NCBI GenBank assembly: GCA_034521575.1
Contig: JAXHMJ010000001.1
Coordinates: 62,001-126,000, forward strand
From: a candidate division KSB1 bacterium
GTDB lineage: Bacteria > Zhuqueibacterota > Zhuqueibacteria > Residuimicrobiales > Krinioviventaceae
Length of the DNA: 64,000 nucleotides
Direction of reading: 5' to 3'
Made by a program: the position numbers and the translations under genes. Shown piece after piece: positions 1-9,804 of this stretch. The first letter of the stretch is position 1. Each line of letters begins with the position of its first letter. The notes beneath the pieces were generated by a model, which was not told where the DNA came from, did not search any database, and worked only from the letters and a program-made list of their open reading frames with translations.

Positions 1-2
1 CG

Positions 3-251
3 CGCGCCCGCAATACGGATATGCGGTTTAATCCGGATAAAACTAAACTGCTGGAGGCCGGTCATGCGCCGATTTTGATGGAACCTGTAAAGATGCGCAT
101 GCATCTGAGCCGAAATATTTCTGAAATATACGCGTTGGATCATGCAGGAGGCGACCGAATAGCGGGTCTTCCCGTGAATGGGCAAGACATTGTTATTGAT
201 GGTGAATCTTATCAAACCCTTTACTATGAAATACTATGTAAAGATGACTAG
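3..251 (+). CDS. C-terminal end of an unrecognised protein (5' truncated)
   Basis: The reading frame is open from the window edge to a stop at 249-251, so this is the tail (about 82 residues) of a gene that begins outside the window. The visible part contains ILMEPVKMRM followed by beta-strand-like sequence and no catalytic motif. Such strand-rich tails are common in the accessory C-terminal domains of glycoside hydrolases. Given the GH3 gene starting 12 bp downstream, it is probably the end of another enzyme of the same cluster. The family cannot be named from this fragment. The first in-frame ATG at 21 is probably internal. Confidence 0.6.
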   Translation, partial: RARNTDMRFNPDKTKLLEAGHAPILMEPVKMRMHLSRNISEIYALDHAGGDRIAGLPVNGQDIVIDGESYQTLYYEILCKDD

Positions 252-2505: not shown

Positions 2506-4281
2506 ATGAACCTGTCACGTACTCTTTGTTTGTTAATGTTGTTTGTATTTGCAGTGGTGTTGCCTGCTCAGTATCAGAATTTTGATGTGGCCATCTATTG
2601 TACGGTTCATGATGTCGACAGGCTGTCTGATCTGGATGTGGCAGAGCAAAAATTTAACGCTATTTCTTCTATGCTGCCTGTGGACAAAGTATACCTGGAA
2701 ACATTCCGCGGCATGACACAAATTGAAAAGGAAAAGATACAACGTGTCAAGGATTTTTTTGAGGAGCGTGGTGTCGAGACGGCAGGCGGTATTACCCCGA
2801 CCGGTGATGTGCGTATTGCCGGACATATGGCGCAGTTATGCTACTCGACGCAAAAGCACCGTCAGCTGCTCAAAGATGTTGTGGTATTTACAGCCGGACT
2901 TTTTGATGAGGTGATTCTGGATGATTTTTATTTCACCAACTGTAAATGTGAAACCTGTATCGAGAAAAAAGGTGACCGGTCATGGGTGGATTATCGTTTA
3001 AAGCTGAAAGAAGAGTATTCTAAAAACGTACTGCTGCCGGCTGCCCGCAAGGCCAATCCGAATGTGTCTATGGTTATCAAATATCCCAACTGGTACGAAG
3101 AATTCCAGTTTACCGGCTATAATCTGGAAAAAGAATCGGAAGCGTTTGATGCGATTCATACCGGCACCGAAACGCGGGACCCGTCCTATACGCATCAGAA
3201 TCTACAGCCGTATCAGAGTTATTCTATTATGCGTTATCTGGAACATGTAAAACCCGGCAGGAACAACGGCGGCTGGGTGGATGAATATTCCAGGCGGTCT
3301 CTGGACCGCTATAAAGAACAGTTGGCTCTGACCCTGTATGCCAAAGCCCGCGAGATCATACTGTTTCATTTTGATTCGATTATCCGAACCGTCGATTGCG
3401 GCGACAGCTCCCGGATTTTGATGAACGTGGTTCCGGAAGCCCGCAAAGTATTTGACAAAGCGGATTGTTTTCTGGGTGAACTGGGAGATCCGGTCGGACT
3501 GGCCGCCTACAAGCCCTACCACTCTTCCGGAGAAAAGTATCTGCATTCGTATCTGGGTATGATCGGCATCCCGATCGAGCTTTCTCCCCGATTTCCTGAG
3601 CACCGTGATGTGGTTTTTCTGGCGGAAAGCGCCAAGTATGACCAGGATATCCTGGCTAAAATGAAAGCACATTTGTCGGATGGCGGTACGCTGATTATGA
3701 CATCGGGGTTGTTTCAGGCGCTGGAAGATAAAGGTGTACAGGACATCATTCAGGCTGACGTGACGGACCGTACGCTCCCGGTGAGCCGCTTTTCAGATAT
3801 GAATTTCAGGGATGTGTACTCTTCGGCTCAGCCGGTATACATCCCGCGTATCGATTATCCGAATAATGACACCTGGAAAGAAGTGGTCGGCATGCACAGC
3901 GGCAACAGCTTTCCCCTGTTGTTAAAGTCCAATTACAAAAGCGGCCTGGTGTATATCCTGACGGTTCCGAATAATTACAGTGATTTTTACAATTATCCGC
4001 GTGAAGCGCTGGGTATGCTGCGCCGGTTCATGTTGAATGACATGCCGGTAACGCTGGATGCGCCTTCGGGCGTGTCATTGTTTCTGTACGATAACAATAC
4101 GTTGATTGTGCATTCCTTTCTCTCACACAATACCCGGGTTGGTATTCAGGTAAAATCCAGAGATGCTGAACTGGTTGATGTGATGGGTGGGCGCAATCTG
4201 CGGGGTGCCGAAAGATGGGGGCGTACGGTGTTTGATACATTCATTGCGCCGCATACATCACGCGTCTTTACAATCAAATAA
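2506..4281 (+). CDS. Secreted TIM-barrel-like putative glycosidase, unclassified
   Basis: A 591-residue protein with a signal peptide (residues 1-21, ending LPAQ). I do not recognise a named family. The first half looks like an alpha/beta barrel, with an acidic strand end DEVILDDFYFTNC (D-D pair, roughly residues 138-147), VSMVIKYPNWYEEF and WVDEYSRR, which are candidates for catalytic acids. The second half (RDVVFLAESAKYD to GGTLIMTSG) resembles the glutamine-amidotransferase-like trimerisation domain that follows the barrel in some beta-galactosidases, and a beta-rich tail follows. A small Cys cluster (CKCETC) sits beside the acidic pair. It lies between GH3 and GH92 genes in the same operon and has a strong SD (aggaggagc). 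A carbohydrate-active role is inferred from fold and context only. Confidence 0.75.
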   Translation: MNLSRTLCLLMLFVFAVVLPAQYQNFDVAIYCTVHDVDRLSDLDVAEQKFNAISSMLPVDKVYLETFRGMTQIEKEKIQRVKDFFEERGVETAGGITPTGDVRIAGHMAQLCYSTQKHRQLLKDVVVFTAGLFDEVILDDFYFTNCKCETCIEKKGDRSWVDYRLKLKEEYSKNVLLPAARKANPNVSMVIKYPNWYEEFQFTGYNLEKESEAFDAIHTGTETRDPSYTHQNLQPYQSYSIMRYLEHVKPGRNNGGWVDEYSRRSLDRYKEQLALTLYAKAREIILFHFDSIIRTVDCGDSSRILMNVVPEARKVFDKADCFLGELGDPVGLAAYKPYHSSGEKYLHSYLGMIGIPIELSPRFPEHRDVVFLAESAKYDQDILAKMKAHLSDGGTLIMTSGLFQALEDKGVQDIIQADVTDRTLPVSRFSDMNFRDVYSSAQPVYIPRIDYPNNDTWKEVVGMHSGNSFPLLLKSNYKSGLVYILTVPNNYSDFYNYPREALGMLRRFMLNDMPVTLDAPSGVSLFLYDNNTLIVHSFLSHNTRVGIQVKSRDAELVDVMGGRNLRGAERWGRTVFDTFIAPHTSRVFTIK

Positions 4282-4296
4282 TATTCGTCTTTACAG

Positions 4297-4330
4297 CTGT
4301 TGCCCCTTTGTTCAGGGGCAGCAGTCTTTT
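4297..4330 (+). terminator. Rho-independent terminator between two operon genes
   Basis: An 11-bp stem (ctgttgcccct / aggggcagcag) with a 6-nt loop is followed by tctttttat. It lies 15 bp after the stop of the preceding gene, and the GH92 SD (gggagg) follows at once. It may reduce read-through into the mannosidase gene. It also shows that the ATG at 4300 is not the GH92 start. Confidence 0.8.
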
Positions 4331-4344
4331 TATCGGGAGGCTGT

Positions 4345-7257
4345 ATGTCAAACCTAAAATATTCAATATCCCGCATTGTCGGGGGGATCGCTATTCCGGT
4401 GATACTGTGTTTACTCTTTATCTTGTGTAATCGACCGGTTAATGATTATGCGGCTTTTGTCAATCCGTTTATTGGTACCGGCATCTATTCCCCCGAAGGC
4501 GCGATGGGAGAGGTGAATACATTTCCCGGAGCCGCTTTACCGCACGGAATGGTGCAACTGAGTCCGGATACCGGTCCGCATATTGCCGGTTATTTGTCTA
4601 CCGACTCTACGATTCAGGGCTTTAGTCATACCCATTTATCCGGTACCGGATGTCTGGGGTTGGGACATTTTGGAGTTATGCCCGGAACGGGACAGGTGAC
4701 CGCTGTTGATGAAAGAGGATATAAAACTGCGTTTTACAAAGAATCGGAACAGGCGGAACCCGGATACTACCGGGTAATTCTTGAACCGGACAGCATTGAA
4801 GCGCAGGTTACTGTCACAACACGCGCCGGATTTCATCGATACAGGTTCCCAAACAGTGACAGCGCGCATGTGCTCATTGATGTTACACATAATCTGGCGG
4901 ATGACGATCCGGAAGATGCGACTGTCGAAATACGTGGCGAGAACCGGGTGGACGGTTCGTTAACCCTTCCCAATCCGTTCTGTGGCGGGAAGACCGCCTA
5001 TACTCTGTATTTTTCCGCTCTTACCTCTCGACCGTTTTCCCGATGTGCCACTTGGAAAAATGCAGATATACAATTTGATCAGAAGCGCGAACAGGGTCGC
5101 GATATCGGAACGATGCTGTATTTTGATACGAGTCAGGATAAAGAGATCTTGATCAAAGTTGGAATTTCATTTGTAAGCTATGAGCAGGCACATTTGAATG
5201 TAACGACAGAAATTCCGGACTGGGACTTTACGGCGGTCAGACATAAAGCAAGACTGACCTGGAATGAAAAACTCGACAAAATTAAAGTGAGGGGTGGGTC
5301 CGAAGATGACCGGATTAAATTTTATACAGCTGTCTATCATGCGCTTCTCGGTCCCTATACCGCATCGGATGTGAACGGCAAATATCGTAGTATGGATCAG
5401 CAGGTGCATACCGCGAAAGATCATACCTATTACCATGTGTTTTCGCTGTGGGACACATTTCGTTCCGAGCATGCGTTGCTGACTTTGATTGAACCTCAGC
5501 AACAGAACGATATGATTCAATCGTTGCTCGACAAACAGCAACAGGGCGGATGGCTGCCCAAGTGGGGATTTGCCAACCGTTATACCAATTGTATGATCGC
5601 CGACCATGCCGTTTCTGTGATTTCAGAATCCTATCTTAAAGGGATTCGTGATTATGATACGGAACAGGCCTATGCGGCCATGCGCAAAAACAGCACTCGA
5701 TTGCCCGGCGAGGGAACCGTAACCTTGTTGAGTATTGATGATCAGTTTGAATTGCAGATTAGTCCCGACGGGCGCGGACGTATTGTCTGGAACCAAAAAA
5801 CCAGGCAAAATGCTGCAGAGTTTTCCTGGGACGGCCGGTTCAACGACCTGCGCTGGCATCATCTAACCTTAACTGGTAGTGAGGATCATCATTACCGGCT
5901 CTACCTGGACGCTGAAATCGCAGCGGACATTCCCGCAACTGTCGCACCGCATTTGAATGGGGCGAAATTCAAGCTGGGCGTTCATCGAAAGCCCAATATA
6001 TCCGGCGAATATTTTACCGGGCTGATTGATGAATGGCATCAGTATGCGCACGCGTTGAGCGAAAAGCAAGTGCAAACTCTTTATAACAAGACCTTGTCCG
6101 GCAGTTCTCTGTACGCATCTTTTGACTATGAGATCCCCCGGGCCTTTCGGGTATCCGGAGATCCTGAATATGATCAAGGCAAGTCAAACGCTGCTCTCAT
6201 CATTGACGGCATTGATGATGCAATTAAAGTGGAAACCAAACCGGCATTTACGATTGCATTCTGGTTCAAAACCAGTTTGCCCGTGGATTATCAGGGGCGT
6301 TGTGGACTCGATTATGTGGACAGACCGGGCTATATCCCGCATGATATCAAGTGGCATGGCTGGGGAAGTGTTTCTACAACCCTGGAAGGTGCTTATAATG
6401 ACTGGTGCCTCGCTCAGGTCGCACAGGCAATGGGTAAAGAGAAAGATTTCCACTATTTTATGAAACGCGCCGGGAATTATCAAAATCTGTTGGATCCGGA
6501 AACCGGATTTATGCGTCCACGCAACAAAGATGGATCCTGGAAGTCAGAGTTTGATCCACGCGACTGGGATGGGTTTACCGAGGGTAACTCTTGGAGTTAT
6601 ACATGGTTTGTACCCCATGATGTGGGGGGATTGATCCAGCGAATGGGACGTGAAACTTTTATTCAACGTCTCGACCATCTGTTTGCTGAACATGATTATC
6701 CATCCTGGCATGAACACTTTTCTCATTACTGGCATGGCAACGAGCCTTCCCAGCAGGTACCCTACTATTATACCTATGTCGGTCAGCCCTGGAAAACCCA
6801 GGTTGTGGTGGATGATATTATGAATCATTTATACGGTACCGGACCGGCGGGCATTCCCGGCAATGAGGATGTCGGCCAATTGTCAGCCTGGTTCGTTCTG
6901 AGCGCTATGGGATTCCATCCTGTGGCTCCGGCGCAGTGCACGTATGTATTGGGTCGCCCGCTATTTGACCGGGTTCAAATTGAACTTGATAAACGATATT
7001 ACAATGCAAAACGATTCGAAATTGTGGCTAAGAATAATAGTCCCGCCAACAAGTATATCCAATCCGTAGAGATCAATGGTCAAACCTGGAATCGGACCTG
7101 GTTTGATCATGATGTGATCCGCAATGGCGGAAGCATTGTATTGAATATGGCGAGCATTGTGAACCGGGAGTGGGGCGCCGCTCCTGATGCGGCGCCGCCT
7201 TTTATGAGTGAGAATCAAGTGAAATCCGGGGTCGCTCCGCGCGGCTCCGGGATTTAA
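4345..7257 (+). CDS. Glycoside hydrolase family 92 alpha-mannosidase with inserted LamG-like domain
   Basis: GH92 enzymes are calcium-dependent exo-alpha-mannosidases. The start at 4345 is chosen because an SD gggagg lies 4 bp upstream and the earlier ATG at 4300 is inside a terminator. This gives 970 residues with an N-terminal membrane-spanning signal. GH92 hallmarks are FVNPFIGTG, FPGAALPHGMVQLSPDTG, GFSHTHLSGTG, SLWDTFRSEH, HGNEPSQQVPYYY (catalytic-acid region), GQPWKTQ and GNEDVGQLSAWFV. Residues about 453-648 are not GH92. They are a concanavalin/LamG-like beta-sandwich set between AYAAMRKNST and GRCGLDYVDRPGYIP, both normal neighbours in GH92. The order of LamG motifs in the insert is rotated (see findings). 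The insert may bind carbohydrate. The gene sits in the secreted-hydrolase operon. Confidence 0.95.
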   Translation: MSNLKYSISRIVGGIAIPVILCLLFILCNRPVNDYAAFVNPFIGTGIYSPEGAMGEVNTFPGAALPHGMVQLSPDTGPHIAGYLSTDSTIQGFSHTHLSGTGCLGLGHFGVMPGTGQVTAVDERGYKTAFYKESEQAEPGYYRVILEPDSIEAQVTVTTRAGFHRYRFPNSDSAHVLIDVTHNLADDDPEDATVEIRGENRVDGSLTLPNPFCGGKTAYTLYFSALTSRPFSRCATWKNADIQFDQKREQGRDIGTMLYFDTSQDKEILIKVGISFVSYEQAHLNVTTEIPDWDFTAVRHKARLTWNEKLDKIKVRGGSEDDRIKFYTAVYHALLGPYTASDVNGKYRSMDQQVHTAKDHTYYHVFSLWDTFRSEHALLTLIEPQQQNDMIQSLLDKQQQGGWLPKWGFANRYTNCMIADHAVSVISESYLKGIRDYDTEQAYAAMRKNSTRLPGEGTVTLLSIDDQFELQISPDGRGRIVWNQKTRQNAAEFSWDGRFNDLRWHHLTLTGSEDHHYRLYLDAEIAADIPATVAPHLNGAKFKLGVHRKPNISGEYFTGLIDEWHQYAHALSEKQVQTLYNKTLSGSSLYASFDYEIPRAFRVSGDPEYDQGKSNAALIIDGIDDAIKVETKPAFTIAFWFKTSLPVDYQGRCGLDYVDRPGYIPHDIKWHGWGSVSTTLEGAYNDWCLAQVAQAMGKEKDFHYFMKRAGNYQNLLDPETGFMRPRNKDGSWKSEFDPRDWDGFTEGNSWSYTWFVPHDVGGLIQRMGRETFIQRLDHLFAEHDYPSWHEHFSHYWHGNEPSQQVPYYYTYVGQPWKTQVVVDDIMNHLYGTGPAGIPGNEDVGQLSAWFVLSAMGFHPVAPAQCTYVLGRPLFDRVQIELDKRYYNAKRFEIVAKNNSPANKYIQSVEINGQTWNRTWFDHDVIRNGGSIVLNMASIVNREWGAAPDAAPPFMSENQVKSGVAPRGSGI

Positions 7258-7305: not shown

Positions 7306-9804
7306 ATGAATTCTTTTCAATGCCGTCTTGTTTTCCTGTTTGTATTTTTGACCATTGCGGTTGTCTATGGCCAAAAAGCAGAGATCAATTACACACCTCT
7401 GCAGTCCGGGAATGAACTTGTTTTTAAAGAGATACCTAAAAACGGATATTATCAGCCCTTGGACCGGGTTGTTTTGACGGTGAACCGGCCGGGTGTTGTG
7501 GTTGTCCGGGATGCGACAGGTGATATTTATCTGAAATCTGATGTCGAGTCTGAGCTTGTTTTTCAGGCCGGTGGTGCATTGGGCACGCACCGCATCTGCC
7601 TGCAGGATTCCGATGGCAAGATATTGGATCAGGCCCGTTTTTATCTGGGTGCACAGACGCAAATTCGGGATAAGGGCGGCCGATACGAACGATTGCTGAA
7701 TACGCTGTACTGGACCATGGTGAAAAACTGGGGTGAAACCGAGGTGGTACGTCTGGACCAGTCTTTTTACAAATTTTTTGTCCGCTGGCTGCGCGACCAT
7801 GTTCATACATTAAAAGGTATGAAATATTTTTATGAGGATTTGAAAAGCGGTATTGATTTGTATGCTGAATATCAACGCGATGACGGGATGATCTATGATA
7901 ATATTTATCCGCGCCGTGAAAAAAAGAATTGGTGGGACAAACGTTTTCAGTATGGCGATTTTATTGAACATATTGACGATAATGCCTACGAGTTGAAACG
8001 CATCCCGGTTGAAAATGATGTTGAATATTTGTTTATTGAAGGGTTGTATTATACCTGGAAGGCCACGGGGGATGATGTGTGGATGCAGTCACACCTGGAC
8101 AATGCCCTGAAAGCGGTCGAGTACTCGCGAACGTCACCGTACCGCTGGTCTTTTGAATATGATTTGCTTAAACGCGGATTCACCATTGATACCTGGGATT
8201 TTCAGCCGGCAGAGGATGCAGCGCGTGTGGGCGGCGACATTATGGTGGTGGATACTGCCAGGACGCGGTTCGGTGTTATGTTCGGCGACAATACCGGTAT
8301 GGCCGCGGCCTGCGAGTATCTGGCTGAAATGCTGGAGACAGCGGGTCGGCACGTCAAAGCGACAGAGATCAGAGAGTTTGGTCAGAGCCTCAAACAGCGT
8401 CTGGATGAACTGGCCTGGAACGGCGAGTATTATATTCATCATGTTCCGGAAGATCGTTCAGTCAGGCGGAATTTCGGCGCAACGGACCAGAGTGAGCAGG
8501 TTTCGCTCTCCAATGCGTATTCTCTGAATCGCACCCTGACACATGAACAATGCGTTGCCATTATCAAAACCTACCAACAGATTCGGGATAGCATGCCGGA
8601 AACATCTCCCGGCGAATGGTATAGCATTTATCCGCCGTTTGAAACCGGCTTTCATCTGCCCAAATGGGAATACATGAATGGCGGCGTTACGCCGATCGTG
8701 GCCGGAGAGCTGGCACATGGAGCATTTGAACACGGATTCGAGAATTATGCTGCCGGAATATTGGAGCGCGTCGCCGGTCTGGCTTTGGAAACCGGTGATT
8801 ATCTGCATTGTGCTTATCGGGGCAAGGCGCCGGCAGCGGTGAATCGGGGTTTTAATCCGGTTTCATTGGCCGATGCCGGCAACTCGGTTTATCCCGGGGA
8901 CGAATCTCTTTTTAACGGCCAATCTTTTTCGGAAACTGCTGTATCGGATCGCCGCGCTGAATTTCATCATATCCCGTTTTATGTGCGTTATGCAGAGGAT
9001 CAGCAAACCTGCATCACTGTCAGCCGTTCGAATGAATGGACGGATCAGAGCAGCGTCAAAATTGAGCAACAGGCAGAATCCGTCTATTTCCTGCACTCCT
9101 CGGACCCGGTGCGGAGTCCGGGAGCGATTACTCTCAATTATGCTGACGGCACCCATTACACAGAGTATATCGTCAATCAGGATAATATCGGCAACTGGTG
9201 GCATACTGCCTCGAACGCATATAAAGCCTGGCGAAGTGACAATGAGGGACACTATGATGCATTGTATGTTTACGGCATGAATAACCCGTATCCGGGAAAA
9301 ACGATTAAAACGATCTCGTTTGCAGCCGGAAGCCCCAAGCGTTACTGGGTACGCGGGATAACCCTTTCGGATTATCCGGTGTATTTTCCGCCGGACATGA
9401 TATCCTACGGAATCCCGGATAATTGGGGCGCGGCAGCTGTGGTTTACGCGTTGATTGAAGGCCTGGCCGGTGTTAAAGACAGGGGGTCGGCATTTGACTC
9501 GGTATTGATTGCTCCGCGCTGGCGCGCAGCCGGTGTATCACAAGCTAACGCGGTGGTGAAATATGAAGCGAGCGGCGGTTATGCGGCGTACAATTATCAG
9601 TGCGGCAAAGACAGTGTTATCCTCGAATTGACCGGAAGCGGAGCCGGAGCAGCGGTGCGGATATTGATCGATGATCAAACCCCGTCCCGGGTTCAGGTTG
9701 ACGGTCAGCCTGTCCCGTTTGAGATCGACAGGGTTGAAGCATCACGATATGCCGTTTTTTCCATCTCTGAAAAAGGGGTGAATACAGTAAAACTGGTTTT
9801 CTGA
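7306..9804 (+). CDS. Secreted alpha/alpha-toroid-like glycosidase candidate
   Basis: An 832-residue protein with a signal peptide (residues 1-22, ending VYGQ) and SD gaggag. The N-terminal about 110 residues are beta-rich. The middle (about 130-500) has regular helical repeats with WLRDHVHTLKGMKYF, DDGMIYDNIYPRRE, ENDVEYLFIEGLYYTWKATGDD, DTWDFQPAEDA and EYMNGGVTPIVAGELAHGAF, as in six-hairpin (alpha/alpha)6 glycosidases. Acidic residues within these motifs are candidate catalytic residues. The last about 250 residues look like one or two beta-sandwiches. I cannot assign a CAZy family. The position next to GH3 and GH92 genes supports a role in glycan breakdown outside the cytoplasm. No gene follows before the 10012 terminator. 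Confidence 0.75.
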   Translation: MNSFQCRLVFLFVFLTIAVVYGQKAEINYTPLQSGNELVFKEIPKNGYYQPLDRVVLTVNRPGVVVVRDATGDIYLKSDVESELVFQAGGALGTHRICLQDSDGKILDQARFYLGAQTQIRDKGGRYERLLNTLYWTMVKNWGETEVVRLDQSFYKFFVRWLRDHVHTLKGMKYFYEDLKSGIDLYAEYQRDDGMIYDNIYPRREKKNWWDKRFQYGDFIEHIDDNAYELKRIPVENDVEYLFIEGLYYTWKATGDDVWMQSHLDNALKAVEYSRTSPYRWSFEYDLLKRGFTIDTWDFQPAEDAARVGGDIMVVDTARTRFGVMFGDNTGMAAACEYLAEMLETAGRHVKATEIREFGQSLKQRLDELAWNGEYYIHHVPEDRSVRRNFGATDQSEQVSLSNAYSLNRTLTHEQCVAIIKTYQQIRDSMPETSPGEWYSIYPPFETGFHLPKWEYMNGGVTPIVAGELAHGAFEHGFENYAAGILERVAGLALETGDYLHCAYRGKAPAAVNRGFNPVSLADAGNSVYPGDESLFNGQSFSETAVSDRRAEFHHIPFYVRYAEDQQTCITVSRSNEWTDQSSVKIEQQAESVYFLHSSDPVRSPGAITLNYADGTHYTEYIVNQDNIGNWWHTASNAYKAWRSDNEGHYDALYVYGMNNPYPGKTIKTISFAAGSPKRYWVRGITLSDYPVYFPPDMISYGIPDNWGAAAVVYALIEGLAGVKDRGSAFDSVLIAPRWRAAGVSQANAVVKYEASGGYAAYNYQCGKDSVILELTGSGAGAAVRILIDDQTPSRVQVDGQPVPFEIDRVEASRYAVFSISEKGVNTVKLVF

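Follow-up and report, generated by a model that had tools for sequence, protein, structure and literature searches.

Precedents exist for permuted ConA-like folds, for inserted domains and for inserted domains in permuted form. The natural permutants to which PMC2213659 and PMC3281007 refer, a Fibrobacter lichenase and concanavalin A/favin, share the ConA-like fold, but they are free enzymes or lectins. Likewise cpA16M-84 (PDB 1ajk) is a permuted ConA-like jelly roll, but a man-made free enzyme that does not sit in a host loop. The HABAS domains of bacterial RNA polymerase are an insertion domain found in circularly permuted topologies, three of which are related by permutation (PMC11515920); as far as the cited sections of that report go, they differ from the case described here in being small beta domains in RNAP, with no LamG and no junction record of the event. 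The globin domain of androglobin is also a natural circularly permuted domain within a larger protein, but the cited part of that account concerns a metazoan globin with an IQ segment at the join (PMC11077535). NnGH92 is a GH92 enzyme with carbohydrate-binding modules, one of which, a CBM32, is itself inserted in a loop, although the excerpts cited here place it in the N-terminal CBM-like domain and not in the catalytic domain (PMC10167667). For region B (Zygosaccharomyces bailii, wine yeasts), the cited passages propose that a circular DNA integrated at several sites with its order circularly permuted; 4 of 6 insertions show 2-3 bp of microhomology, but the element is a 17-kb multigene segment in yeast chromosomes and not a single domain in a bacterial gene (PMC3053389). 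Domain insertion and permutation can co-occur, according to the cited part of PMC13114784, and how natural circular permutants arise is, according to that of PMC3281007, not fully understood.

In the window, by which we mean the whole 64,000-nucleotide stretch of DNA that was analysed, a GH92 glycosidase gene carries an insert that we read, with a probability of about 0.85, as a single LamG domain (ConA-like jelly roll), complete but circularly permuted, that occupies a hypervariable loop of GH92 without loss of host residues (Table 1). The swapped halves, the single 192-codon unit, the joined native ends, the intact frame, and the lack of an insert at this site in the GH92 relatives examined are all shown by the sequences and profile matches. 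The insert has the same halves and core motifs as the Laminin_G_3/LamG-like ConA-fold family (Pfam PF13385), from which it differs by the swapped order of the halves. Among the open-licence papers searched, no listing describes a permuted LamG or a LamG inside GH92. What is new is the word TTGCCCG shared by both junctions, and the in-frame closure that is obtained only with one copy of it. Older permutants are unlikely to retain their breakpoints. Here a full permuted domain stands in a host gene, is absent from all relatives examined, and is bounded by matching 7-bp breakpoints that are still readable, so that one-step integration can be weighed against duplication and deletion. A LamG cut point carried within an enzyme could also serve domain-insertion engineering.

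Table 1. Features of the GH92 gene and its insert (positions in the window).
Feature	Position	Strand	Remarks
GH92 glycosidase ORF with insert	4300..7257	+	intact, 985 aa
GH92 N-terminal domain	4456..5169	+	aa 53-290; Pfam PF17678, 238.3 bits
GH92 catalytic domain, first segment, through MRKNSTR	5170..5700	+	PF07971 in two stretches; alignment with 17 relatives
Insert, read as circularly permuted LamG domain	5701..6276	+	192 codons, aa 468-659
Left copy of 7-bp junction repeat TTGCCCG	5701..5707	+	
C-terminal LamG half, first in insert	5740..6108	+	C-half profile, 66.2 bits
Join of native C- and N-ends (about NKTLSGSS)	6079..6105	+	read from sequence; matches linkers of tandem LamG pairs
N-terminal LamG half, last in insert (QGKSNAAL...FWFKTS)	6169..6276	+	profile match; 24.0 bits alone with N-half profile
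Right copy of TTGCCCG	6277..6283	+	encodes LP where GH92 resumes
GH92 catalytic domain, second segment	6277..7152	+	PF07971
Glu761, probable general acid, motif TEGN	6580..6582	+	motif common to solved GH92 chains; role from the cited part of PMC10167667
Asp857, probable general base, motif GNEDVGQ	6868..6870	+	aligned with solved GH92 chains; role from the cited part of PMC10167667

The original prediction placed an insert at 5695-6300; the insert is there, but its exact borders are those of Table 1. In the whole protein the Pfam profile Laminin_G_3 matches aa 476-592 and covers profile positions 37-151 only, and the missing first part of the profile stands downstream of this C-half match. 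The LamG score of the insert, 51.9-56.2 bits, compares with a Pfam curated cut-off of 27.6. Both halves are present, since after rotation the Pfam profile is covered from 17 to 151 and our own profile from 47 to 218, and the core motifs IDGIDDAIKV, FTIAFWF, RWHHLTLT, RLYLDA, GLIDEW and ALS are kept. The native order, N-half then C-half, is absent from the insert. The profile matches follow the predicted order of C-terminal half, short join and N-terminal half, which makes the insert a permuted LamG and not an ordinary member of the family. The proposed cut point between FWFKTS and TVTLLS holds, as does the proposed join of the native ends, LYNKTLSGSSLYASF. The insert comprises one full period in which nothing is lost or doubled, its native ends are joined, and it can be rotated in frame without meeting stops. 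The one detail not confirmed is the assignment of LYASFDYE to LamG strand A: it is plausible by eye, but the profile match begins at QGKSNAAL and AlphaFold gives no confident strand there.

Rotating the insert into native order raises its Laminin_G_3 score from 56.2 bits (profile 41-151) to 67.3 bits (17-151), a gain of 11 bits. Our own LamG profile was built from the 17 LamG domains that met coverage limits. When all 192 rotations were scored with it, the value rose from 69.4 bits as found to 106.2 bits near the native start, a gain of 37 bits that is somewhat biased because the 17 domains had been retrieved for their resemblance to the rotated insert; the Pfam gain is the figure independent of this bias. 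With the same profile the N-half alone scores 26.8 bits. Shuffling the last 61 residues in native order gave 64.5 ± 0.85 bits, with a maximum of 72.2 (n = 500), and substitution of 183 GH92 61-mers for the second half reached at most 68.9 bits. These rotation scores, the fold prediction and the relatives without the insert bear out the claim of a circularly permuted LamG inside GH92.

Structure prediction had been suggested as a check; a fold other than LamG, or halves that form two domains of their own, would have counted against the reading. Two AlphaFold runs on the 192-residue insert (62 and 86 rows) gave mean pLDDT values of 77.6 and 79.6 and pTM values of 0.75 and 0.79, and both returned one compact ConA-like jelly roll, with no separate half domains and no non-LamG fold. 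The models thus support the view that the swapped halves fold together as one jelly roll. The last strand, FTIAFWF (183-191), falls in blocks at pLDDT 87-92, about 90, in both runs, and the strand A region, about insert residues 136-160, is not confidently modelled (block pLDDT 43-57), the residues around 141-160 being poor in both. Fragments of the N-half were dropped as alignment rows because MAFFT placed them on the wrong half, and their place was taken by rows that cross from a tandem LamG into its neighbour; the second run was supplied with 66 of 72 such out-of-step tandem rows and 19 C-half rows. We do not expect these out-of-step rows to bias the prediction toward the permuted fold, because the two halves of each row should lie in different domains of the protein it comes from.

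The top match in both VIA-align 2 comparisons was the engineered circularly permuted lichenase cpA16M-84, 1ajk (first model: Z 11.7, rmsd 3.1, 131 aligned; second model: Z 11.2, rmsd 3.2, 143 aligned). This alignment spans model 3..192 on chain 1..213. Other rows, among them pentraxins and lectin-like sialidase domains, mostly stop at 129-175; the laminin entry 5xau also covers 1..192, with 117 aligned in the first comparison. Because 1ajk leads the native-order folds by only about one Z unit, a near tie by the tool's standard, the fold argument leans on coverage and not on rank. The Foldseek E-values are weak, at best 3.8e-4 and 1.7e-3. The models also support a position of the new ends at the short loop joining two consecutive native strands, an arrangement in which the predicted domain can be accommodated in a host loop without forcing the host apart.

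For the host itself, GH92 ORFs were picked from 35 BLAST rows, with overlapping copies and short fragments excluded, and aligned with the gene; these relatives, 17 in all, come from its family and from its own genome. Minus the insert the GH92 protein has normal length, and the insert sits in a loop that varies in length and is bounded by MRKNST and a segment ending GYIP. The host does not lack any residue, in agreement with the predicted clean insertion between GH92 segments. A comparison of GH92 genes with and without the insert had also been suggested. We made it by pairing matches across the site (140 rows among the matches listed, after removal of the query gene, of a pair in G062:C109 and of rows distant from the site), which yielded, among the matches listed, 62 other genes in 31 genomes. 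None of the 62 has the insert, and their extra length at the site is at most 45 nt relative to the host gene minus insert. The 31 genomes include the gene's own, from which three other GH92 genes are listed. The permuted insert in GH92 was seen in one genome only.

The junctions read CGA-TTGCCCG-GCGAGG on the left and AGT-TTGCCCG-TGGATT on the right. In 200,000 random draws of a breakpoint pair, one in the GH92 gene and one in the insert circle, at least seven bases were shared by chance in a fraction of 4.65e-4. A single count of TTGCCCG leaves an uninterrupted reading frame through the rotated 576-bp unit, and the circle closes in frame; with TTGCCCG taken as a target duplication, the remaining body of 569 bp is out of frame and has stops. 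Because only the single-copy count closes in frame, the sequence makes it most likely that the incoming unit brought its own TTGCCCG and met the same word in GH92. The shared word and the in-frame closure favour integration of a circular or tandem-derived 576-bp unit. Past the 7-bp repeat, the flanks 5684-5707 and 6265-6283 share a further imperfect stretch, CAAAAACAG / CAAAACCAG, and the homology used at the junctions may have been longer and gapped. The GC3 of the insert is 0.52 and its codon use is near that of the host gene and its neighbours, which suggests either an age sufficient for adaptation or an origin in a similar genome.

We tentatively propose, at somewhat less than even odds, that the insert originated in one step. 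The partner that recombined with the GH92 gene at the common TTGCCCG would have been a 576-bp LamG unit, in the form of a circle or of a one-period, out-of-step copy from a tandem LamG array. Insertion and circular permutation would then have been simultaneous, and the junctions would be the scar of a single event at a 7-bp microhomology, a reading that we hold with the same reserve. If it is true, LamG tandem arrays supply permuted plug-in domains, and a fused duplicate in the same gene is not a necessary stage of circular permutation. The same product would be reached in several steps if a native-order LamG had entered the loop first, a tandem duplication had followed, and deletions had then removed the first and the last half of the doubled domain. 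Duplication and deletion is the usual route proposed for circular permutation ('proposed duplication/deletion' in the cited part of PMC3281007), and the TTGCCCG repeats could mediate deletions too. However, there is no LamG-sized insert, single or double, at the site in the 62 paired GH92 genes among the matches listed, and the route needs two deletions, both with an endpoint at the same 7 bp, that between them spare exactly one period. We regard it as a possible but rather unlikely course of events.

The direct repeat of 7 bp on both sides of the insert is also what a transposition-like insertion with target duplication would leave, the word TTGCCCG then coming from GH92 alone and being copied. 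This is very improbable, since closure of the 569-bp body shifts the reading frame of the second half and brings in stops, and on the reading frame we rejected a transposon target-site duplication. Nearly as improbable is a pair of half-domain remnants that do not form one domain and make up a partly degenerate insert tolerated by the host. The strand A region is indeed weak in both profile and model, but the insert has exactly one period, core motifs in both halves, an open frame, a compact model and a last strand at pLDDT about 90. Least probable of all is an assembly artefact in which LamG reads were misjoined into GH92: one genome only carries the insert, but the artefact needs a pair of misjoins, each at a 7-bp overlap and separated by 576 bp, with both frames kept and one exact LamG period between them, in an assembly of 5 contigs.

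A tandem-LamG ancestor, which the original prediction had suggested looking for, was sought in 82 genomes of the phylum and not found. When the same 82 genomes were searched with the insert for a donor LamG, nothing close turned up; the best match apart from the gene itself had an E-value of 1.2e-6 and 34% identity. Against the collected loci, the rotated insert reached at most 28% identity across the full domain; among solved-structure sequences it gave weak matches only, mostly designed beta-trefoils, and viral scans with the whole protein and with a native LamG gave no relatives. The scan of genome contigs yielded one distant native-order LamG (L044, 31%). It lies mid-protein in an ORF of 999 aa from a Singulisphaera-labelled MAG (L044:2684-5683), and is possibly an inserted domain without permutation. 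From viral contigs we collected 72 non-redundant tandem LamG pairs; stretches of them taken with an offset of half a period align with the insert over its whole length, which fits a tandem ancestor. One viral contig (L101, minus strand) has a tandem LamG array whose successive units are apparently letter-for-letter alike over some 230 residues, and arrays of this type, with nearly identical units, could give rise to circles or out-of-step copies.

Using separate half profiles at 364 loci, we read the order of the halves in 406 ORFs with half-domain hits, 403 of them with a C-half, a survey that is not random because many viral loci were chosen by motif search and some overlap. A case was called closed if a C-half was followed by an N-half and by no later C-half, with protein on both sides. 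The window gene, which appears in four overlapping loci and is thus counted four times, is the sole closed case, and no other was found among the 406 ORFs. The order C-half then N-half is also seen in four viral ORFs (L295, L318, L287 and L293), each of which runs off its contig and is probably a cut tandem array. Two further LamG matches, in genomes G008 (L054) and G002 (L030), were considered as permuted and rejected: L054 is in native order, and L030 is not among the closed cases. A search of the 82 phylum genomes with a permuted profile ranked the window gene best by a wide margin, at 149.9 bits against 115.1 bits for the next match, with a profile that included the insert itself; several of the next-best matches, some of which were inspected, lie in very long ORFs. 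A lone LamG-type ORF of 233 aa on viral contig IMGVR_UViG_3300008516_000114 (L072:53-751) starts with MALELDG and ends with GLVGYWRMNE...DLSGYGNHGT, the usual first-strand motif; it is apparently a natural LamG permutation with a different cut point.

The probable true start of the host gene is the ATG at 4345, with GGGAGG just upstream. The GH92 catalytic domain scores 585.2 bits with Pfam, split in two with a partial LamG between, and the protein matches TIGR01180 at 613.4 bits. With the motifs of the general acid Glu and of one base Asp conserved, the enzyme is, judged by its residues, probably active; an Asn replaces the second base candidate (Asp642 of Bt3990, numbering mapped in this analysis). 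Binding of glycans would be the simplest putative role for a LamG in a catalytic-domain loop, and we consider it conceivable, if on balance doubtful, that the insert is a glycan-binding module held on the predicted mannosidase. The neighbouring ORF at 264-2483 encodes a GH3 enzyme. Two large ORFs near it, at 2506-4281 and 7306-9804, flank the GH92 gene; neither gives a Pfam or NCBIfam hit at E 0.001, and they may be uncharacterised members of a glycan-degrading cluster.
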